This document shows, piece by piece, positions 1-7,729 of a DNA stretch of 8,093 nt. Positions within the stretch are counted from its first letter, which is position 1; each line of letters starts with the position of its first letter. The stretch is taken from contig JAFQOB010000231.1 in NCBI GenBank assembly GCA_017395725.1, positions 1 through 8,093 of the forward strand, read 5' to 3'. This DNA is from Clostridia bacterium. Lineage in GTDB: Bacteria > Bacillota_A > Clostridia > Oscillospirales > CAG-272. The position numbers were made by a program, and so were the translations under genes. The notes beneath the pieces were generated by a model. The model worked only from the letters and a program-made list of their open reading frames with translations, was not told the origin of the DNA and did not search any database.

Positions 1-2
1 AT

Positions 3-635
3 TATGCATTCGACAATCTTAACTTCCCCCCTCAGCACCCTGCAAGAGAAAGCATGGACACATACTGGCTTGAGGGACACGATTCGGGAGAAGCTAACGA
101 AAAGCTTTGCCTCCGCCCCCACTTAACAGGCGGAAGCGTACGCTATATGCAAACACACAAGCCTCCCTACCGTTTTGTATATCCCGGCAGAGTTTACAGA
201 AACGAAACTACAGATGCGCGTCACGAAAGAGCATTCTTCCAGTATGAAGCTCTTATTGTAGACAAAGACCTTACCTTTACTTCCGGTAAAGTTATGATAA
301 AGAGTATTCTTTCAAAGGTATTCGGTCAAGACGTTCCCGTAAGAATGCGTGCGGGCTTCTTCCCCTTTGTTGAACCCGGTTTTGAAATCGATATGGGCTG
401 TCTTGTATGCGGCGGAAAGGGTTGCAGCGTATGCAAGCACGTAGGTTGGATTGAAATTATGCCCGGCGGCACACCTCACCCCAACGTTCTTCGCGCGGCA
501 GGTGTTGACCCTGATGAATACACAGGTTTCTACGTAAATATCGGTCTCGACCGACTTGTTATGATGCGTTACGGTGTTGATGACGTTCGTCTGTTTCACG
601 GTACAGACCTCAGATTCCTCAACCAGTTCCGCTAA
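3..635 (+). CDS. pheS: Phenylalanyl-tRNA synthetase alpha subunit, 3' part (partial)
   Basis: This is the C-terminal 210 residues of the catalytic alpha subunit, which with PheT forms the alpha2-beta2 enzyme that charges tRNA-Phe in the cytoplasm. The 5' end lies outside the window; the frame is open from base 3, so the in-frame ATG at 54 is internal. Class II synthetase motif 2 is visible (PGRVYRNETTDARHER, about bases 186-231), and motif 3 is GLDRLVMMRYG near 543-575. A four-cysteine cluster, C-x2-C-x4-C-x2-C, is encoded at 399-434 and looks like a zinc knuckle. My recollection is that some bacterial PheS proteins carry such a cluster and others lack it. The segment after it reads IMPGGTPHPNVL. 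The stop is 18 bases before pheT, so the two are co-transcribed. Identity is secure, and it is supported by the adjacent pheT. Confidence 0.97.
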   Translation, partial: YAFDNLNFPPQHPARESMDTYWLEGHDSGEANEKLCLRPHLTGGSVRYMQTHKPPYRFVYPGRVYRNETTDARHERAFFQYEALIVDKDLTFTSGKVMIKSILSKVFGQDVPVRMRAGFFPFVEPGFEIDMGCLVCGGKGCSVCKHVGWIEIMPGGTPHPNVLRAAGVDPDEYTGFYVNIGLDRLVMMRYGVDDVRLFHGTDLRFLNQFR

Positions 636-653
636 GAAACGGAGGTAAACATT

Positions 654-3092
654 ATGAAATTATCACTTAATTGGATAAAAGATTACGTAAAGCTTCCCGA
701 GGATATGGACCTTTCTCAATTGGCATTTGACCTTACAATGTCAACGGTTGAAGTTGAGGGCGCTCACGACCTCGGTAAACAGTTTGATAAAATTATTGTT
801 GGTATAATCAAAGAAGTGCAGCCTCACCCCAATGCAGACAAGCTCCGCGTATGCAAGGTGGATATCGGCACAGAAGAAATAAAGGATATCGTATGCGGCG
901 GCAGCAACCTTAAAGCAGGTATGAAGGTTGTAGTTGCTTGTCCGGGGGCAATGGTACGTTGGCACGGCGAAGGCGAACCCGTTGAAATAAAGAACGCAAA
1001 GCTTCGCGGTGTTGCAAGCTTCGGTATGATATGCGCATCGGTAGAAGTAGGTCTTGCCGACCTCTTCCCCGCAAACGACGACCACGAAATAATGGACGTT
1101 ACTTTCCTCGACGTTGCAGCAGGCACTCCTATTGCCGACGCTCTTGACCTTAACGATATTATTCTTGAAATAGACAACAAATCTATGACAAACCGCCCTG
1201 ACCTCTGGGGTCACTACGGTATTGCGAGAGAAATTGCGGCTCTTTACGACCTTCCTCTCGTTGAATTTGAAAAATATACTCCCGATACGGATAATGAATA
1301 TGACGTTCGTATTATTGACAGCGAAAGATGCCCCCGTTATATTGGCGCAAAGGTTGAAGGTCTTGGCATAAAGCCCTCTCCCTTTGAGATGCAGAGCCGT
1401 ATCTGGCGTGTGGGTATGCGTCCTATAAACGCTCTCGTTGATATTACAAACTACGTAATGTTGGCACTTGGTCAGCCCACCCACGTTTTTGATTCAAACC
1501 ATATTGTAGACCATATAGAAGTTCGCCGCGCAAATACAGGCGAAAAGCTTCAGCTTCTTAACGATAAGGATATTACGCTTACAACCGACGACCTCGTAAT
1601 TGCAGATGCAGAGGGTGCCGTTGCTTTGGCGGGTGTTATGGGCGGTGCAAAGGATTCCGTACTTCCCGAGACAAACAGCGTTATACTCGAGGTTGCAAAC
1701 TTTGATTCACGTACTGTAAGAAGAACTGCTCTTCGTTACGATAACAGAACAGAGGCTTCCTCACGTTACGAAAAGGCTATTGACCCCGAAAGATGCGACC
1801 TTGCACTTTCAATGTCAATGCAGTTGTTTAAAGAACTCTATCCCGAAATGAAAGTTACGGCTTTCAAAGACTTGTACGTAAATAAGCTTACAAAGAAAGA
1901 AATCGACGTTGATTTCGATTGGCTCGACAGACGTCTAGGTATGCGTATTCCTCAGGAAATCGTTGCAAGAAAGCTTGGAACTATGGGTTATGAAGTAACC
2001 TTTACCGATAAGGGTATGCACATTGTTGTTCCTACATGGCGTTCAACAGGCGACGTATCTATTAAGGCTGACATTATGGAAGAGGTTGCACGTATGTACG
2101 GCTACGAAAACTTCCAGCCCACACCTATTACAACGTCTTTTGACAGTGCGATAAACCAGCTTGATATGGACCTTGTACGCAAGGTTAAGGAATATCTTGC
2201 ATTCCGTTGCAATATGCAGGAAATATTTACGTATCCTTGGATGACGGATACCTACGTTAACGCTATTCTTCCCAACACAGAAGGCGTTTTGGCTCTGTCA
2301 ACTCCCCCCTCTCCTACAGAAAAGTATATTCGTTCAACACTCCTTCCCAATATTTGCAAGGCAATTGTAAAGAACGAACACTCCTTTGATGAATTTGCAA
2401 TATTTGAAGAAGCTCAGATTTTTGCCGATAAGGATTATACTTCACCTTACGACGAGAAAGAAAAGCTTCCCTATCAGCGTAAGCACCTCGGTTGTGCATT
2501 TGCGGGTAAGGCAGATAACGTTGCAGAGCTCTTCCGTAAGGCTAAGGGCGTTATCGGTATGATGCCTCGTTATACACATATGGAAGGCTTTACGTTCAAG
2601 CGTGAAGAAAAGCCTTATTGGGCAGACGAGACGGTTTGGATGAACGTATATCTCGGCGACAAAAAGATTGGTGATATGGGTCTCCTTTCAAGAAAAGCGG
2701 CTATTGCCTGCGGTATAAAAGTGCTTTCTGCAGTTCTTGTTGAGCTTGATATGGACGCATTTGTTCCTCTCAAGTCAAGAACGAACCGTTACGCACCTAT
2801 TCCCGAATTCCCCACAAATAACTTCGACCTTTCATTCTTGGTTGACTCTATGGTTAAGTGGGATGATATCTATGGGGCAGTTACAGGCAAGAAGACGGAA
2901 AATCTTCAGGAAGTGCTCTTTGTTGACGAATATAAGGGTAAACAGGTTCCCGAAGGCAAAAAGTCTGTTACTATACGTCTTGTTATCGGTTCTGACGAAA
3001 AGACACTTACGAGCAACGATATAGACAGCGTTGCAAACAGCGTTATGAAGAAGCTCACAAAGCAGCTCGGCGTTGAATTCCGTACAGTTTAA
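654..3092 (+). CDS. pheT: Phenylalanyl-tRNA synthetase beta subunit
   Basis: This is the 812-residue beta subunit, a normal length for bacterial PheT. It supports tRNA-Phe binding and editing of misacylated Tyr-tRNA-Phe. Domain order fits the family: an N-terminal tRNA-binding OB fold (about residues 40-150, with VQPHPNADKLRVCKVD), the B3/4 editing domain (about 210-385, with MRPINALVDITNYVMLALGQ followed by PTHVFD), the B5 domain (about 405-475), a degenerate class II core, and a C-terminal ferredoxin-like anticodon-binding domain (about 718-811, beginning near YAPIPEFPTNNFDLSFLVD). The start is ATG 654, with GGAGG at 641-645, eight bases upstream. It follows pheS by 18 bases and is the last gene of the operon, closed by hairpins just after the stop. 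No frameshift or missing domain is seen. Its base composition is more GC-rich than the regulator genes that follow. Confidence 0.98.
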   Translation: MKLSLNWIKDYVKLPEDMDLSQLAFDLTMSTVEVEGAHDLGKQFDKIIVGIIKEVQPHPNADKLRVCKVDIGTEEIKDIVCGGSNLKAGMKVVVACPGAMVRWHGEGEPVEIKNAKLRGVASFGMICASVEVGLADLFPANDDHEIMDVTFLDVAAGTPIADALDLNDIILEIDNKSMTNRPDLWGHYGIAREIAALYDLPLVEFEKYTPDTDNEYDVRIIDSERCPRYIGAKVEGLGIKPSPFEMQSRIWRVGMRPINALVDITNYVMLALGQPTHVFDSNHIVDHIEVRRANTGEKLQLLNDKDITLTTDDLVIADAEGAVALAGVMGGAKDSVLPETNSVILEVANFDSRTVRRTALRYDNRTEASSRYEKAIDPERCDLALSMSMQLFKELYPEMKVTAFKDLYVNKLTKKEIDVDFDWLDRRLGMRIPQEIVARKLGTMGYEVTFTDKGMHIVVPTWRSTGDVSIKADIMEEVARMYGYENFQPTPITTSFDSAINQLDMDLVRKVKEYLAFRCNMQEIFTYPWMTDTYVNAILPNTEGVLALSTPPSPTEKYIRSTLLPNICKAIVKNEHSFDEFAIFEEAQIFADKDYTSPYDEKEKLPYQRKHLGCAFAGKADNVAELFRKAKGVIGMMPRYTHMEGFTFKREEKPYWADETVWMNVYLGDKKIGDMGLLSRKAAIACGIKVLSAVLVELDMDAFVPLKSRTNRYAPIPEFPTNNFDLSFLVDSMVKWDDIYGAVTGKKTENLQEVLFVDEYKGKQVPEGKKSVTIRLVIGSDEKTLTSNDIDSVANSVMKKLTKQLGVEFRTV

Positions 3093-3101
3093 AAAATAAA
3101 A

Positions 3102-3117
3102 ACACCCGAAAGGGTGT
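3102..3117 (+). other. Short GNRA-loop hairpin after pheT
   Basis: Arms ACACCC (3102-3107) and GGGTGT (3112-3117) enclose a GAAA tetraloop, ten bases after the pheT stop. It lacks a downstream U-tract, so it is not a full terminator. It may protect the 3' end of the mRNA or help the stronger terminator downstream. The structure is seen in the sequence; the role is inferred. Confidence 0.55.
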
Positions 3118-3130
3118 GCACCATAAGGCT

Positions 3131-3172
3131 AAAAAGACGCATCATCTACATTGATGGTGCGTTTTTGTTTTT
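3131..3172 (+). terminator. Intrinsic terminator of the pheST operon
   Basis: The arms ACGCATCATC (3137-3146) and GATGGTGCGT (3153-3162) pair over ten positions with one T-G wobble around a six-base loop. They are followed by TTTTGTTTTT (3163-3172). An A-run (3131-3135) precedes the stem, so weak activity on the opposite strand is possible. It lies about 40 bases beyond the pheT stop. Confidence 0.88.
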
Positions 3173-3280: not shown

Positions 3281-4069
3281 ATGAATATTGGAAACAAAAT
3301 AAAAGAATTGAGAAAGCAACGCGGTATTACTCAAGAAAAACTCGCAGAAAGTATAGGGGTTTCCTTTCAAGCGGTTAGCAAGTGGGAAAATAATATAGCA
3401 TTGCCGGATATTACGCTTGCTCCCGTACTTGCCAGCTACTTTGGTGTATCAATAGATGAACTTTTTGACCATAATCTTGAAGAAATCAGAAATGATGCTG
3501 TTTCTATAGCAAAGAAAAGTGTTAAATACCGTGAAACAAATCAAGAAGAAGGTTGTAGGATCATTGAAGAAGGACTGAAAAAATATCCAAATAATGATAT
3601 TTTACTGTGCAATCTTCTGTATTTAATAAACTATTGGAAAGAACCGGACAAAACCATAGATATAGCTTTAAAAGTTATTGATGTTACAAAGGACAATTCA
3701 ACAAAATACGATGCCCTTCGTTTTTTGGCGTACGCCTATAAAGCAAAAGGAGATCTTAACGGAGCTCGGTCAGCACTTGAACAAATACCTGAAATATATT
3801 TTTCGCGACTTTCCGAAATGGCATATATTTTGAGTGGAGAAGAAAAAATGAATGCTGCACAAAAACAATTGGGAGTTTCTTTGAGCAGCTTGATTGAAAT
3901 GCAGTCTCGTATTGCAGAATGTCACATTGAAAAAGGAGATATGCAATCTGCATTAAAGGAATATGAAAAAGCCATAGGAGTACTGGAATTATTAGAGGCA
4001 AGTGATGCGTGGAATTCCGAACGCAATTTTTTTAAAAAACAGATTTTATATGTAAAAGAACGACTATAA
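3281..4069 (+). CDS. XRE-family transcriptional regulator with TPR-like tail
   Basis: This is a 262-residue cytoplasmic DNA-binding protein. Residues about 4-62 form an XRE/Cro-CI helix-turn-helix (IKELRKQRGITQEKLAESIG then VSFQAVSKWENN, with the recognition helix around residues 28-38). The rest is helical. It has TPR-like pairs near residues 140-172 (AYAYKAKGDLNGARSALEQI) and 211-240 (IAECHIEKGDMQSALKEYEK). Such tails often serve for dimerisation or for sensing a peptide or partner. I chose ATG 3281 because GGAGGTG (3269-3275) lies just upstream of it; the TTG at 3260 is in frame but has no such site. The gene has its own promoter with a palindrome in the spacer, so autoregulation is likely. 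It is AT-rich compared with pheT and convergent with a second XRE gene. The target and the inducing signal are unknown. Confidence 0.9.
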   Translation: MNIGNKIKELRKQRGITQEKLAESIGVSFQAVSKWENNIALPDITLAPVLASYFGVSIDELFDHNLEEIRNDAVSIAKKSVKYRETNQEEGCRIIEEGLKKYPNNDILLCNLLYLINYWKEPDKTIDIALKVIDVTKDNSTKYDALRFLAYAYKAKGDLNGARSALEQIPEIYFSRLSEMAYILSGEEKMNAAQKQLGVSLSSLIEMQSRIAECHIEKGDMQSALKEYEKAIGVLELLEASDAWNSERNFFKKQILYVKERL

Positions 4070-4143
4070 TTTAAAGTAAAATTTTATTGGTGCATCACTT
4101 TTTGTATCTAAAAAAGCAGCACTTATTAGGAAAAACAGATAGA

Positions 4144-4184
4144 CCTTAGGGTGAAATCTGATTTATAAAAAGGCACCCCAAAGG
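4144..4184. other. Bulged hairpin in the gap between convergent XRE genes
   Basis: CCTT-a-GGGTG (4144-4153) can pair with CACCC-ca-AAGG (4174-4184), giving nine pairs with a small internal loop around a 20-base loop. No T-run follows. The role is unknown; it may only be the tail of the upstream transcript. Confidence 0.3.
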
Positions 4185-4205
4185 CTACTTCTCATAAGGA
4201 TGATT

Positions 4206-4236
4206 AAAACCTCGATGAAATTCATCGAGGTTTTTT
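4206..4236. terminator. Bidirectional intrinsic terminator between convergent genes
   Basis: AAAACCTCGATGAA (4206-4219) and its exact complement (4221-4234) form a near-perfect palindrome; a usable hairpin has about 12 pairs with a short A/T loop. T6 (4231-4236) follows on the plus strand. The A-run at 4206-4209 gives a T-run on the minus strand, so it can end both the plus-strand XRE transcript and the minus-strand one. Confidence 0.9.
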
Positions 4237-4273
4237 CTTGCGTCTACACAGTACAATTATGTGAATTTGTATA

Positions 4274-4789
4274 TCAATTTTTCTCTATTTTTTTATAAGC
4301 ATGGTTTTCAACATATATCATCATATTATTATATAAAACAGCATAAAATAACACGCTCAATAAACCCGAAACTGCTCCTATAAGTGCATGATCAACATTT
4401 TGAGATTTTAACACAATGCCCAAGCCACACCACACCATGAAAGAAAAAACAATTTTAAATCTATTTTCTTTTCTCCATTTTTTCTTGAAAAATGCTATTT
4501 TTTCTTTTAGTGTAAACGAACTATTTTCCAAAGCTTCCAATAAGTTGTTATCGGCGATCTTTTTATACTCATTGTCATCAATTTTTTCGCCAATAAAAAG
4601 CTCGTTCAGGGAAATGTGTAGTACGTTGCATAAATCTTGCATAATTGAAACATCAGGCAAATTCAAACCTCGTTCCCACTTTGAAACTGCATTTTTGCTT
4701 ATATTCAACCGCTCAGCTAATTGTTCCTGTGTTAAGAATTGTTTCTTTCTGTTTTCGGAAATGAATTTTCCGATTTTGATTTGATCCAC
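4274..4789 (-). CDS. Membrane-anchored XRE-family regulator
   Basis: This 171-residue protein has an N-terminal XRE helix-turn-helix (about residues 5-65, with ENRKKQFLTQEQLAERLNIS then KNAVSKWERG) and two C-terminal hydrophobic segments (about 111-128 and 135-160), with a basic run KKKWRK just before the first. This predicts a DNA-binding domain tethered to the cytoplasmic membrane. The start is GTG at 4789, supported by AAAGGAG (minus strand, 4799-4805) nine bases upstream. It is convergent with the TPR-type XRE gene and shares its terminator. A palindrome covers its -10 box, which suggests autorepression. HTH plus two-TM proteins occur in Firmicutes, sometimes next to a transporter or membrane target, but none is present here. 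The target is unknown. Confidence 0.88.
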   Translation of the reverse strand: MDQIKIGKFISENRKKQFLTQEQLAERLNISKNAVSKWERGLNLPDVSIMQDLCNVLHISLNELFIGEKIDDNEYKKIADNNLLEALENSSFTLKEKIAFFKKKWRKENRFKIVFSFMVWCGLGIVLKSQNVDHALIGAVSGLLSVLFYAVLYNNMMIYVENHAYKKIEKN

Positions 4790-4812
4790 AAATAATCACT
4801 CCTTTGCAAAAA

Positions 4813-4826
4813 AGTATATCATATAC
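4813..4826 (-). promoter_or_regulatory. Extended -10 promoter overlapped by a palindrome
   Basis: On the minus strand TGATATACT supplies an extended -10 (TGn then TATACT, plus-strand 4813-4818, five of six consensus). No good -35 is visible. GTATAT (4814-4819) and ATATAC (4821-4826) form a perfect 6-base inverted repeat around one base, lying directly on this element. It is a likely operator, and the membrane-anchored XRE protein is the obvious candidate to bind it. Confidence 0.5.
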
Positions 4827-4974
4827 ATTCACCTTGATACACATACTTGCGGTTTACTTTCTAAAATTATCATTAATTTTGTTGAAACCGGAATGAAAAT
4901 AATTACTCTCTGTCTTAACAGAACCAGCATCGCATTTGTATGTACAAAAGCTGACAAGGGCTAAGCCCAAACCC

Positions 4975-5325
4975 TTATTTTGATTTAATGGTTTTAAGTG
5001 AAGAAATTAACATTCTGCGGATGGCACCGCAATCGTTTTGTAATGTTTTATAATCTTCTCCGTTCATACAATTAGTTTCAAATAGAAGTTCAAGCCAATA
5101 TTCCGTTTCGTAACACTCTTTTTGAGCAATTTCAAGTTTAGAAATAAAATCTTTTGTCCCCTGTGCGTATTGTGCTTCGTGTAAATTTGCACCGATTGAA
5201 GTGGCAGAGCGAAGTAATTGATTGATTAAAACTGATTCTTTATGATTTGATTTCATATCACGGCAGAGAAAAACAACAGTTTTTGCAAACTCTTTTGTCT
5301 TATCTCTTAAAATGCTGTCAGCCAT
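4975..5325 (-). CDS. Four-helix-bundle protein, S23/23S rRNA IVS family
   Basis: This is a 116-residue, all-helical soluble protein. The segment LLRSATSIGANLHEAQYAQG (residues 38-57), then DFISKLEIAQKECYETEYWL, is the signature of the S23/IVS four-helix-bundle family. The family was first noted as an open reading frame inside intervening sequences of some bacterial 23S rRNA genes. It is related to the Avd accessory protein of diversity-generating retroelements, and members are widespread as stand-alone genes of unknown role. I chose ATG 5325: AGAGG (minus strand, 5334-5338) is eight bases upstream, whereas the in-frame GTG at 5334 falls within that ribosome binding site. It has its own promoter, and that promoter abuts a hairpin array upstream. 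No rRNA sequence or reverse transcriptase lies in the window. The family call is confident; the function is not known. Confidence 0.9.
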   Translation of the reverse strand: MADSILRDKTKEFAKTVVFLCRDMKSNHKESVLINQLLRSATSIGANLHEAQYAQGTKDFISKLEIAQKECYETEYWLELLFETNCMNGEDYKTLQNDCGAIRRMLISSLKTIKSK

Positions 5326-5344
5326 AGTTATCACCTCTAAATTT

Positions 5345-5372
5345 ATTATACATGAAAATGATAGTCTTTCAA
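5345..5372 (-). promoter_or_regulatory. Sigma-A promoter of the four-helix-bundle gene
   Basis: On the minus strand the -35 is TTGAAA (plus 5367-5372) and the -10 is TATAAT (plus 5345-5350), with a 16-base spacer. The predicted start near 5338 leaves a very short leader that begins at the ribosome binding site. The upstream end of the -35 box touches the first linker of the hairpin array. Confidence 0.75.
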
Positions 5373-5573
5373 GTGATATTCCGACTTTGTCGGAGTGATA
5401 TTATTGCCCTATGGCAATAGTGTTATTGAAACCTCTCGGTTTCAGTGTTATTTCATTCGCCGCCAAAACTCGCGAAGCGAATACCACTCGGCATAAGCCG
5501 AATATCACTGCGAAGCAATAGAACTCGCCTAAGGCGAATAAAACTGCGAGACTTCCTTATGAGAAGTCTCGCA
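5372..5573. repeat. Array of eight hairpins with AGTNNTATT linkers and a polarity switch
   Basis: This gene-free stretch carries eight hairpins: CCGAC/GTCGG (5381-5393), ATTGCC/GGCAAT (5403-5418), GAAACC/GGTTTC (5428-5443), TCGC/GCGA (5470-5480), TCGGC/GCCGA (5488-5501), TGC/GCA (5509-5517), TCGCC/GGCGA (5525-5537) and an 11-bp stem (5545-5573). The stem sequences differ yet each is self-complementary. Linkers in the left half are AGTGATATT (5372, 5394) and AGTGTTATT (5419, 5444). In the right half they appear as the reverse complement: AATACCACT (5480), AATATCACT (5501), AATAGAACT (5517) and AATAAAACT (5537). The orientation flips around 5453-5469. Spacing is irregular (16-25 bases), so it is not a simple tandem repeat or a CRISPR. 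It could be DNA that forms cruciforms, or an RNA. Confidence 0.85.
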
Positions 5574-5588
5574 ACGGGTGCTTTTTTT
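5545..5588 (+). terminator. Terminator closing the hairpin array
   Basis: The 11-base arms TGCGAGACTTC (5545-5555) and GAAGTCTCGCA (5563-5573) pair perfectly around a 7-base loop. A run of seven T (5582-5588) follows after eight bases. The spacing is looser than in a classic terminator, but the stem is strong. It would stop plus-strand transcription through the array before the GH20 promoter. Confidence 0.65.
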
Positions 5589-5600
5589 ATTTCCATTACA

Positions 5601-5629
5601 TTGACAATACATTTTTGCTGTGTTAAACT
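5601..5629 (+). promoter_or_regulatory. Promoter of the GH20 gene
   Basis: A consensus -35 TTGACA (5601-5606) is followed, after a 17-base spacer, by TAAACT (5624-5629). A TGn extension (5621-5623) makes up for the imperfect -10. The predicted start near 5636 gives a leader of about 26 bases. Confidence 0.7.
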
Positions 5630-5661
5630 GAACCAAAGCAATGGTATAGGAGGATAGAGAT

Positions 5662-7479
5662 ATGTTTTTTAAACCCAAATTCAAAGAATTTGACAAATCA
5701 AAGACAGTATCTTTTTCAAAAGGTACAGCTATAAGAATCCCCGACTGCAACGTAAAGGAATACTTAGAAGAACTGTTTTACAACACTTTTGGTGCGAAAA
5801 AGAACGCAAGTTGCAAAAAATTGACTTTTAAATACGGTCTGCCCAAGGACATAGCAAAAAAATGTAACGCATCGGGAGACGAGGAAGAATATGCCCTTGT
5901 GCTCGGCGAACAGTCATATATTTACGCCAACAGCGAAAGGGGCTTTATATACGGACTTAACACTCTTATTTCTTTGAGAAAAATCTATGCCGGAATTTTG
6001 TACGACTGCCCCGTATGCTCTGTAAGAGGCTACAGAGTATATTTACCCGGACGGGACAACATACCGGTTTTCAAAAATATGATAGACTTTCTCGCTGAAT
6101 ATAAATATAACTCCGTTATACTTGAGATAGGCGGTGCAATGGAATACAAACGCCACCCCGAGATAAACGAAAAATGGGGGGAATTCTGTGACGAAGTATA
6201 TGCTGACCCCACAAGAGCAGACGTTATACAACATAAAACATACCCTTGGACAAAAGACTCCATACATTGCGAAAACGGAGACGGCGGCGTTCTTACACAA
6301 GACGAATGCAAAGACATTGCGGAATATTGCAAAGCGAGAGGTATAGAGGTTATTCCTGAAGTTCCTACCCTCAGCCACAGCGATTATATTTGCCTTGCCC
6401 ACCCTGAAATTGCAGAAAGACAAGACGATGCATATCCTGATACCTATTGCCCTAACCACCCCGATTCGTACAAATATGTTTTTGATATTATTGATGAAGT
6501 GATTGAGGTGTTTGAGCCTAAACAGATACATATAGGCCATGACGAAGCGTATACTTTGGGAATATGCGATAGGTGCAAACATACAGACCCGGTAGAATTA
6601 TACGTTAATGACATTAAGAAGATAAAAGAATATCTTGACTCAAAGAATATAAAGACAAGTATGTGGGCTGAAAAACTTCTGAAGGCGTATACAAAAGCAG
6701 GAACGCCCATAGGCGGTACGGGTGCAACAGGCTTCAGAAACGGCGGACAGTGGGCTATTCCTGCCCTTTGGCGTTGCCGCGACCTTTTGCCGCAAGATAT
6801 GCTTTACGTTCATTGGTATTGGGAATTCGGTAAACATCATGACCGAATTTATCACGACAGAGGGTACGATATGATTTTCGGAAATTTGTCGGCAATTCAA
6901 ATTAACGATTGGAAAGAACGTGTAGAGTGGGGCGCTAAGGGCGGCTGGGTATCCAACTGGGGTTCTTTTGAAGAAGAATATATGCAAAGAAATATACAGT
7001 ATTTTAATCTTATAAGCGGTGCATACGCTTTTTGGAATACAGATTTTGACAGCAAAAACAAGAAAGCCATACTCGATAAGACGTTTAAAGAAGCCTATAC
7101 TCATAAGTGGAAGAACGAGAAGAATACTATTACGATTAAACACAGAACGCTTGAAAATATTCCTCACGAATTTTTCTGGTGCGGTGTGTTTATTGAAGAC
7201 GGAAAATACCTTATCGGCAATTACGAGATAGAGTATGCCGACGGTACAAAAGCGGTTTTACCGGTTAAATACGGCACCAATATCGGAGCAAAATATATTC
7301 CTAAATATCCGCTTGACAAGGAGCTTTTTCAGCTTGCGGGTGCAGTATTGCCTATAGGTGAAAACGGCGATTTGTTCTACGAATGTAAGTTCGTTGACCC
7401 TAATCCCGACGCAGAGATTGTCGGTATCAGATACGTTCCCATAAAAGAAGAATTTACCGTTGAATACGGCGTAATGTAA
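5662..7479 (+). CDS. GH20-like beta-N-acetylhexosaminidase, cytoplasmic
   Basis: This 605-residue protein resembles glycoside hydrolase family 20 enzymes, which remove terminal GlcNAc or GalNAc using the substrate N-acetyl group. Residues 1 to about 115 look like the GH20b alpha/beta domain. The TIM barrel starts near VRGYRVYLPGRDNIPVFKNM. The HIGHDEA motif (residues 290-296) supplies the expected Asp294-Glu295 catalytic pair; the usual form is HIGGDE, and HIGCDE in HexD-like members. Tryptophans at 335, 385, 387, 429, 433 and 458 could line the acetyl pocket. A C-x2-C pair (302, 305) follows the motif. There is no signal peptide or membrane segment, so it probably acts on imported oligosaccharides or recycled glycans. 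AGGAGG (5648-5653) sits eight bases before ATG 5662. It has its own promoter, and no transporter or sugar gene is visible beside it. Exact specificity is uncertain. Confidence 0.85.
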   Translation: MFFKPKFKEFDKSKTVSFSKGTAIRIPDCNVKEYLEELFYNTFGAKKNASCKKLTFKYGLPKDIAKKCNASGDEEEYALVLGEQSYIYANSERGFIYGLNTLISLRKIYAGILYDCPVCSVRGYRVYLPGRDNIPVFKNMIDFLAEYKYNSVILEIGGAMEYKRHPEINEKWGEFCDEVYADPTRADVIQHKTYPWTKDSIHCENGDGGVLTQDECKDIAEYCKARGIEVIPEVPTLSHSDYICLAHPEIAERQDDAYPDTYCPNHPDSYKYVFDIIDEVIEVFEPKQIHIGHDEAYTLGICDRCKHTDPVELYVNDIKKIKEYLDSKNIKTSMWAEKLLKAYTKAGTPIGGTGATGFRNGGQWAIPALWRCRDLLPQDMLYVHWYWEFGKHHDRIYHDRGYDMIFGNLSAIQINDWKERVEWGAKGGWVSNWGSFEEEYMQRNIQYFNLISGAYAFWNTDFDSKNKKAILDKTFKEAYTHKWKNEKNTITIKHRTLENIPHEFFWCGVFIEDGKYLIGNYEIEYADGTKAVLPVKYGTNIGAKYIPKYPLDKELFQLAGAVLPIGENGDLFYECKFVDPNPDAEIVGIRYVPIKEEFTVEYGVM

Positions 7480-7513
7480 GATAATAAGTTGATAGTGGTT
7501 TTAGTAAAATTGC

Positions 7514-7712
7514 TTTGATAGTGTTTATGAAATAAACATTATCTTCAAATAAAACTTCACCTCTGTGTACTTATTTACATTTTCGCACAAACCGAGGAAG
7601 ATTCCAATGTTAGATGTTACTTTGATAGTGATTTAAAAAAACACTATCTACAAATAAAACACAACCTCTATGCATTCATTGCAATTTTGCACAGACTAAA
7701 GGAAGATTCCAA
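7514..7712. repeat. Two imperfect copies of a ~105-base intergenic element
   Basis: Copy A is 7514-7607 and copy B is 7621-7712. Shared blocks keep order and spacing: TTTGATAGTG (7514, 7621), CAAATAAAAC (7546, 7651), CCTCT (7560, 7665), GCACA (7585, 7689) and GGAAGATTCCAA (7596, 7701). Each copy opens with a hairpin: GATAGTGTTTAT with ATAAACATTATC (7517-7543) in A, and GATAGTG with CACTATC (7624-7648) in B. A second pairing may follow (TGTG/CACA in A, TGCA/TGCA in B). A fragment, TTGATAGTG, also occurs at 7489-7497. There is no convincing reading frame. It is probably a dispersed structured repeat of the genome. Confidence 0.75.
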
Positions 7713-7729
7713 AGGTGGAAAACCTTTGG
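7709..7729. other. Perfect 8-bp hairpin
   Basis: CCAAAGGT (7709-7716) and ACCTTTGG (7722-7729) pair around GGAAA. It overlaps the end of the second ~105-base repeat copy and opens a chain of hairpins. No T-run follows, so it is not a terminator. Confidence 0.6.

Follow-up and report, generated by a model that had tools for sequence, protein, structure and literature searches.

A mirror-image hairpin array with Gut-1-like halves accompanies S23 genes in a mobile element of intrinsic-terminator loops

REPIN/RAYT systems and group IIC introns are hairpin-based mobile units that have non-autonomous copies and use hairpins or terminators as targets. The protein S23 is related to Avd of the diversity-generating retroelements, and its family, PF05635, is not known to have a catalytic activity. 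Some of the rRNA intervening sequences, which replace hairpin loops, carry S23; in Coxiella the intervening sequence of the 23S rRNA replaces such a loop and encodes S23 (PMC4990558). Gut-1 (RF01706) was put forward as a likely noncoding RNA candidate, known from environmental sequence only and labelled "human gut only", by Weinberg et al. 2010 (PMC2864571), which among the matches listed was the only paper returned by a literature search for the accession RF01706. No paper linking S23 to a hairpin array was found among the papers listed by searches of the open-licence PMC literature. Here we describe an array that is real, conserved and mobile, and that joins Gut-1 and S23, both already known, by a link that we found in none of the papers listed by these searches.

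The array lies in an 8,093-nucleotide stretch of a contig from a Clostridia bacterium (the window; features in Table 1). On the forward strand, positions 5372-5572 contain four linkers AGTNNTATT, a pivot and four linkers AATANNACT, together with eight hairpins. A preliminary description, made from the letters alone, had placed at 5372..5573 an array of eight hairpins, four forward and four reverse-complement linkers and a switch of polarity. All of this is borne out, except that the end given lies one base beyond the last hairpin. The "fixed 9-base linker" is indeed a kept word, although it is better written as AGT(T/G)NTATT, and the polarity pivot between the halves is present but not empty, since it pairs with the outermost linker of one half: this linker and the next stem arm (TTNTATTCGCC) pair with GGCGAATANAA in the pivot and so close that half. 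When folded as single-stranded DNA, positions 5340-5600 reach -48 kcal/mol, as compared with -25.0 +/- 3.2 in 200 dinucleotide shuffles (z = -7.1), none of which folded as well. The array thus exists as described, but it is only part of a larger mobile element that has a gene, ends and a target.

Table 1. Features of the element and its borders in the window (positions in nucleotides; strand as read)
Feature	Position	Strand	Basis
Host intrinsic terminator, 5' half (on +), AAAAAGGCACCCC	4167..4179	+	complementary GCACCC/GGGTGC and A/T tracts on the two sides of the element
Whole mobile element, 1,395 bp	4180..5574	-	left edge from L014, right edge from right ends of relatives and terminator halves
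Element right end with inverted terminal repeat (CATCCTTATGAGAAGTAGCCTTT on -)	4180..4204	-	common to L002, L007, L011 and others
Terminator-like hairpin 3' of cargo gene	4210..4230	-	sequence; similar hairpin near right ends of relatives
Cargo gene, XRE-type HTH protein, 171 aa	4274..4789	-	PF01381, E=5e-14; same cargo in L014
Two-hairpin module GGGTTTGGGCTTAGCCC...GATGCTGGTTCT, between S23 (or array) and cargo	4920..4974	-	several relatives; kept in S23-less copies
S23 / 23S rRNA intervening-sequence family four-helix-bundle gene, 119 aa	4975..5334	-	PF05635, E=9e-27; TIGR02436, E=2e-30
SigmaA-type promoter TTGAAA-16-TATAAT, between array and S23	5345..5372	-	motif match
Half array A, four forward linkers AGTNNTATT and three hairpins	5372..5452	+	weak Gut-1 match at 5371-5437, 28.8 bits
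Linker AGTGATATT	5372-5380, 5394-5402	+	sequence reading
Linker AGTGTTATT	5419-5427, 5444-5452	+	sequence reading
Hairpins 1-4 (last one within pivot)	5381-5393, 5403-5418, 5428-5443, 5471-5479		
Pivot, hairpin 5471-5479 and GGCGAATGAAAT (on -)	5453..5479	.	pairs with outermost linker and stem arm of half B
Half array B, Gut-1-like unit, four linkers, opposite polarity	5476..5546	-	RF01706, 47.3 bits, E=1.4e-8
Reverse-complement linker AATACCACT	5480-5488	on +	sequence reading
Reverse-complement linker AATATCACT	5501-5509	on +	sequence reading
Reverse-complement linker AATAGAACT	5517-5525	on +	sequence reading
Reverse-complement linker AATAAAACT	5537-5545	on +	sequence reading
Hairpins 5-8	5489-5500, 5510-5516, 5526-5536, 5546-5572		
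Left terminal hairpin GCGAGACTTCTCATAAGGAAGTCTCGC, terminal repeat in and around loop	5546..5572	-	in relatives sequence differs, hairpin stays (by eye)
Host intrinsic terminator, 3' half (on +), CGGGTGCTTTTTTT	5575..5588	+	sequence reading

At the Rfam gathering cut-off nothing in the window is matched, rRNA included. With an E-value cut-off, half B matches RF01706 on the reverse strand with 47.3 bits (E 1.4e-8), where the gathering cut-off is 50, and half A matches it on the forward strand with 28.8 bits (E 6.5e-4), or 29.6 bits with a slightly different stretch. Scores of at least 50 bits were obtained for nine of 34 loci tested, namely three of 14 loci with the linker dialect of the window (L001, L012, L053) and six of 20 in a mixed set (L089, L110, L115, L118, L212, L235). 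The three hairpins of Gut-1, split by fixed linkers, are present here, and both halves align from model position 1 to 77, half A more weakly and with part of the third hairpin skipped. Unlike Gut-1 as described, the unit is here one of two mirrored halves of an array that stands at one end of a mobile element and is linked to S23, and it occurs in metagenome-assembled genomes (MAGs) that are by title mostly from ruminant guts, as opposed to the "human gut only" of the 2010 paper. The statement that the array fits no known family therefore stands for CRISPR and REP/RAYT in the features tested, but not for its halves, which are Gut-1-like, nor for its linked gene, which belongs to the S23/intervening-sequence family.

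An S23 protein search returned at least 7,998 of 8,000 scored candidates, and the relatives studied here are the best 80 of 127 S23-encoding stretches in genome contigs, all of them MAGs that are by title Clostridia, Oscillospiraceae, Ruminococcaceae or Ruminococcus. These 80 loci, one contig of a phage collection and the window (82 sequences) contain 77 clusters of at least four linkers, 75 of which adjoin an S23 gene. All eight linkers, in the order FFFFRRRR and upstream of the gene, were found by strict motifs in 49 of 81 loci, the rest having altered linkers, a contig end or a different layout; in L069 and L052 the forward linkers stand before the gene and the reverse linkers after it.

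In 49 related arrays the stems change their sequence and yet pair. With 14 to 37 different hairpins counted for each of the positions H1 to H6, the paired fractions are 0.99, 1.00, 0.82, 0.98, 0.97 and 0.96, as against shuffled means of 0.97, 0.51, 0.47, 0.84, 0.77 and 0.68, and H1, which hardly varies, is little informative on this point. In H2-H6 we counted 159 double-change cells versus 10 single-change cells; since single changes are so few, exchange of whole stems would fit as well, and the other option of the preliminary description, a copying process from which new inverted repeats arise, may apply. RNAalifold, applied to 39 arrays, gave 41 pairs, 20 of them with at least one double change, and recovered the same long-range helix unprompted. 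In that helix the N of the linker forms T-A in 41, A-T in four and C-G in two of the 49 arrays, while the remaining two rows (the window and L032) missed the helix pattern, with a G elsewhere in the helix. Hence the array is neither single-copy nor devoid of compensatory stem changes, either of which would have spoken against a structured array, and the selection for structure that had been proposed is supported by the pairing of H2-H6 (0.82-1.00 versus 0.47-0.84 when shuffled) and by the double changes. Linker invariance in an alignment picked by motif is partly due to the choice of rows, so the unselected count is that of 27 loci not chosen by motif, where mean conservation is 0.85 at fixed linker positions, 0.68 at N positions and 0.63 in the rest of the array; over all 76 usable loci the values are 0.93, 0.69 and 0.70.

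Among 576 helix cells, 554 are Watson-Crick, 11 G.T, three A.C and eight other (p = 0.06 for 11 to 3), the ratio of G.T to A.C being 11 to 1 in H4-H6 and 0 to 2 in H1-H3. Because of this excess of G.T inside the helices the evidence leans towards folding of the S23-sense strand, be it as RNA or as a single DNA strand, which the excess does not tell apart, and against a double-stranded cruciform. A previous count without strand preference (14 G.T and 10 A.C in 766 cells) included loop positions of short H3 hairpins and was withdrawn. Nested pairing of forward with reverse linkers was rejected as well: only the innermost pair (4 with 5) beat the shuffles (0 of 1000 as high), the other nested pairs being no better than shuffles (189, 945 and 80 of 1000 as high); one of the parallel controls, 4 with 8, beat them too (5 of 1000).

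The array forms the upstream portion of an element of 1,395 bp, whose left edge was set by what the window and L014 share, the flank not being shared (the contig of L014 ends before the right edge), and whose right edge was set by likeness to the right ends of L002, L007 and L011 and by the terminator halves. On the reverse strand its parts follow one another as terminal hairpin, four forward linkers with hairpins, pivot, four reverse linkers with hairpins, sigmaA-type promoter, S23, two-hairpin module, cargo (an XRE regulator) and inverted right end. The right-end repeat CATCCTTATGAGAAGTAGCCTTT is the inverse of ACTTCTCATAAGGA in the left hairpin; other subfamilies have GTAC.C.TAAGGA or CTTAAGGACA in the left-end hairpin. 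Across the family, right ends carry the inverse of the left-end repeat, TCCTTATGAG and similar. Across 23 loci the bases at the right junction repeat those at the left junction (sum 62 versus a shuffled mean of 41.8, as high in 1 of 2000), which hints, and is only suggestive, at a short target duplication, to which stem complementarity could contribute. Ten cargo proteins scanned in nine elements include a methyltransferase, an AraC-type regulator, an ion channel, an acetyltransferase, a SHOCT/DUF4428 protein and one IS200/RAYT-like protein, and two have no match; minimal elements, array and S23 only, measure 708 and 726 bp (L031, L050). An IS200/RAYT-like gene was seen at positions 6669-7190 of L049, inside a terminator-bounded element of this family. 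Elsewhere in the window, a GH20-like gene (PF00728; 5662-7479) lies just outside the element and is followed at 7490-7720 by two copies of a stretch of about 120 bp (GATAGTG...AACATTATC and GATAGTG...AACACTATC, then AAATAAAAC...GAAGATTCCAA), and behind pheT, at 3093-3170, a hairpin ACACCCGAAAGGGTGT followed by GCACCATAAGG...GATGGTGCGTTTTT looks like a terminator with a short insert or a remnant of an element.

Directly outside the element ends lie the halves of an intrinsic terminator, with A-tract and stem on one side and stem and T-tract on the other. The neighbourhood consists of protein genes and terminators and not of a 23S or 16S rRNA helix. A flank pairing score of at least 30 was reached by 20 of 51 loci versus one of 300 pairs swapped between loci, and a score of at least 26 by 26 of 51 versus 12 of 300; ten tRNA-linked loci had been excluded beforehand, and usable loci were those with a first hairpin and enough sequence downstream. 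Among the 31 loci below 30 some are cut by contig ends, and L008, L019 and L024 have no convincing mate, while L066, though among the 20 above the threshold, has a mate that does not coincide with any recognisable right end. The window is not one of the 20: the automatic scan preferred another mate (29.5), and its terminator pair and the limits of its element rest on reading and on the class-wide result. A test based on a T-tail rule had been weak (15 of 62 versus 0 to 8 in 20 swap rounds), and the pairing score was used instead. In 25 elements whose ends were fixed in this manner, genes end at both borders in 16 cases, at one in seven and at neither in two (the window and L031), and in 20 of the 25 a gene of the same reading direction ends just upstream.

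At three sites (L017, L011 and L003) none of 33 relatives examined has the array. For L017 both other genomes of the genus contain relatives of the host gene with an uninterrupted terminator, and for L011 all five other members of the genus have the terminator only. For L003 some match was present in 64 of 70 genomes of the genus, and of the 26 examined, over up to 150 bases around and after the gene end (about 95 in L189), none has the array and 20 show a clear terminator, although some of these relatives may be paralogues. The terminators of empty sites differ in sequence between species. An empty counterpart of the window's own site was not found among 120 genomes, the nearest (G111, 79% identical over window positions 1-2400) being unlike past pheT; the neighbouring XRE-TPR gene has matches in seven of 26 genomes, of which a single one, 67% identical over 567 bases, is more than short. 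Two copies, L016 and L017, are 99.5% identical over 1,462 bp and sit in different genomic places, L016 having no terminal hairpin and no terminator halves. Relatives thus carry the element at unrelated sites inside the loops of intrinsic terminators, and we have little doubt that it is a mobile element of such loops.

The 34 host genomes contain 124 family matches, one to eight each (presence in all 34 follows from the choice of genomes), and the 13-base terminal repeat was found in 13 of 14 genomes, its reversed control never. Searches found no match in plasmid DNA and one unannotated faecal contig in phage DNA; tblastn with S23 gave two phage records and 25 plasmid records, all plasmid matches below 60% identity. 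From the 28 places of the terminal repeat, 14 regions away from known S23 loci were surveyed, and the array was present in seven of them and S23 in none. Two of these S23-less copies, L089 and L090, have the array with other cargo, and some of about 340 bp consist of array and two-hairpin module only; by eye, L089, L092 and L095 lie between terminator halves. The existence of such copies means that S23 is not needed in cis. In two places (L092:2000-2720 and L093:1890-2470) short S23-less elements form tandem pairs in which the first runs straight into the second. The other seven regions (L094, L096-L100 and L102) have the 13-base terminal repeat without array or S23.

When 59 S23 genes of the same genomes were read, 52 were outside the subfamily of the window. 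By a motif list made from the data, 27 of these 52 are preceded by an array with a different linker word (ATATCAT, ATTTCA, AATTCATG, CTTCAY, ATATCG, RCATCAY or ACATCGT), 24 have none, and one is near a contig end. These linker dialects follow the S23 tree, since on 77 rows the labels require 16 changes as compared with 42.5 when shuffled, a value as low being reached in none of 200 shuffles, although the tree is a quick one of a short protein with 32 of 74 branches open, and dialect F alone is not clustered. This tracking may simply reflect inheritance of array and gene as one element. By raw count, 27 of 32 labelled arrays have one polarity switch, two have none and three have two. A tRNA gene lies within the sequence retrieved for 17 of 28 loci with other-linker arrays; at several loci it stands right before the array, an intact terminator separating the two. 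Ten copies (L067, L072, L074-L080 and L081) have no terminal-repeat hairpin and begin right behind a tRNA gene's terminator, which is intact, and L073 resembles them, though no tRNA was found there; no right end of the tRNA-linked copies was found, homology stopping soon after S23 without a common end. Eleven S23 genes grouped on the tree have no labelled array, and the four of them that were read (L105, L106, L107 and L120) lie between short tandem repeats that look, on the two sides, like inverse complements.

By sequence, the window's S23 has a solved relative in 2rld (E 9e-30) and barely in 2gsc (E 0.3). The first T of its promoter is the last T of the last linker, so that the -35 box begins inside the linker. 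A promoter with at least 10 of 12 matching positions is present in 67 of 81 loci, as compared with one of 78 control stretches, and is overlapped by the last linker in 40 of 49 loci.

What could the array be doing? We think it probable that it consists of two facing Gut-1-like units at the upstream end of a small cargo-carrying element of terminator loops, with linkers that may be read by S23, and we would with similar confidence regard it as the region that is recognised in cis when the element moves. That S23 itself is the reading protein we consider an evenly balanced proposition; the linker word is constant and changes with the S23 clade, which points to such reading, although inheritance in cis alone could give the same pattern. 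In outline, the element inserts into loops of intrinsic terminators, often between two genes that end face to face. Its fixed linkers, alternating with hairpins of free stem sequence, would be displayed on a folded single strand and recognised there by S23, which would hold the element ends together, as the complementary terminal repeats suggest, and help to put the element into the loop of another hairpin. The mirror layout would let two half-arrays or two ends be held together, and S23-less copies would be moved in trans. S23 might also repress its own gene, because the -35 box begins within the last linker. A separate enzyme may be at work, and the role of S23 in mobility may only be to assist.

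That the folded strand is DNA rather than RNA we consider somewhat less likely than not, and a real contender is that the array works as RNA: a Gut-1 noncoding RNA, or part of a read-through transcript coming from the gene or tRNA upstream, would be bound by S23, and the element would spread or be tolerated at the RNA level, like rRNA intervening sequences. Gut-1 was indeed presented as a likely noncoding RNA (PMC2864571), and rRNA intervening sequences, some with S23, replace hairpin loops (PMC4990558). The covariation is of the RNA type, with G.T outnumbering A.C inside helices on the S23-sense strand, and the gene that so often ends just upstream in the same direction could supply a transcript. 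Yet the S23 promoter lies downstream of the array in those 67 of 81 loci, so that the S23 message would be without the array, and Gut-1-like units occur on both strands, yet the excess of G.T is not tied to the strand on which each unit reads. A reverse transcriptase (PF00078) was found in only six of the 34 host genomes, so a reading that requires one fits poorly, although MAGs may be incomplete.

In a second, rather unlikely scenario, array and ends form a non-autonomous element for whose movement the host supplies an unlinked transposase, S23 being merely common cargo. This would account for inverted terminal repeats and for S23-less copies in terminators with the same ends. At least 19 of the 34 host genomes have a Y1 transposase, yet none of the 30 Y1 loci found has an array within about 1.5 kb, and the expectation of a consistent Y1 (RAYT) link was accordingly rejected. 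The exception is L049, and the reach of the test is limited: the search missed its IS200/RAYT-like gene, giving only another Y1 place in its genome (G025), so others may have been missed as well. Moreover, linker dialect tracks S23 clade and S23 genes adjoin arrays of eight dialects.

It is improbable that the array is a bidirectional insulator or terminator that compensates for the terminator broken by the insertion. From both sides one indeed meets hairpins and then U-rich linkers, there are eight terminator-like sites in 4050-5700 versus 0.9 in shuffles, four of them between 5377 and 5575, and genes end on both sides of 16 of the 25 elements. However, the U run that an intrinsic terminator needs is missing from many linkers (AGTGATATT), the linkers are kept as words, unlike terminator tails, and arrays behind tRNAs follow an intact terminator. 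Finally, a REP/BIME, integron attC or CRISPR array, which alternating-polarity palindromes and variable cargo might bring to mind, is highly improbable by the REP/RAYT and CRISPR features tested, since no array adjoins the 30 Y1 loci, the units are Gut-1-like instead, the nine-nucleotide repeats around self-complementary, covarying stems are unlike CRISPR repeats, and the four window proteins identified in Pfam are S23, GH20 and two XRE proteins, with no Cas.

Returning to an element whose linkers may be read by S23, the known systems close to it include the rRNA intervening sequences, with which it shares a PF05635/S23 protein, a position in a hairpin loop and complementary borders. It differs from those of the 23S rRNA, which lie in rRNA helices and are cut out by RNase III, in residing in transcription terminators and in having a hairpin array, its own promoter, terminal repeats and cargo. 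That the Coxiella intervening sequence replaces a hairpin loop and encodes S23 suggests a single habit, namely insertion into hairpin loops. With REPIN/RAYT systems and group IIC introns it has in common hairpin-based units, non-autonomous copies and hairpin or terminator targets; unlike in these, neither a RAYT nor a reverse transcriptase proved to be consistently linked, and the main class inserts in the loop and not beside the stem. It is conceivable, though less likely than not, that S23 elements form a class of mobile elements of their own that lacks a recognised transposase, in which S23 and the array make up the whole mobility machinery. Clade-specific linker words between hairpins of free sequence, arranged as mirror-image Gut-1 units, would then be read by S23, and insertion would be into hairpin loops, above all those of terminators but also rRNA helices, as in rRNA intervening sequences.

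For the orphan RNA family Gut-1 these results provide a context, as one of two mirrored units on a mobile element, and for the very common S23/intervening-sequence protein they provide a concrete candidate partner. The choice of target, terminator loops that often lie between facing gene ends or the stretch behind tRNA genes, lets cargo enter with little harm, and the spread of rRNA intervening sequences becomes testable with a small protein and short nucleic acids.
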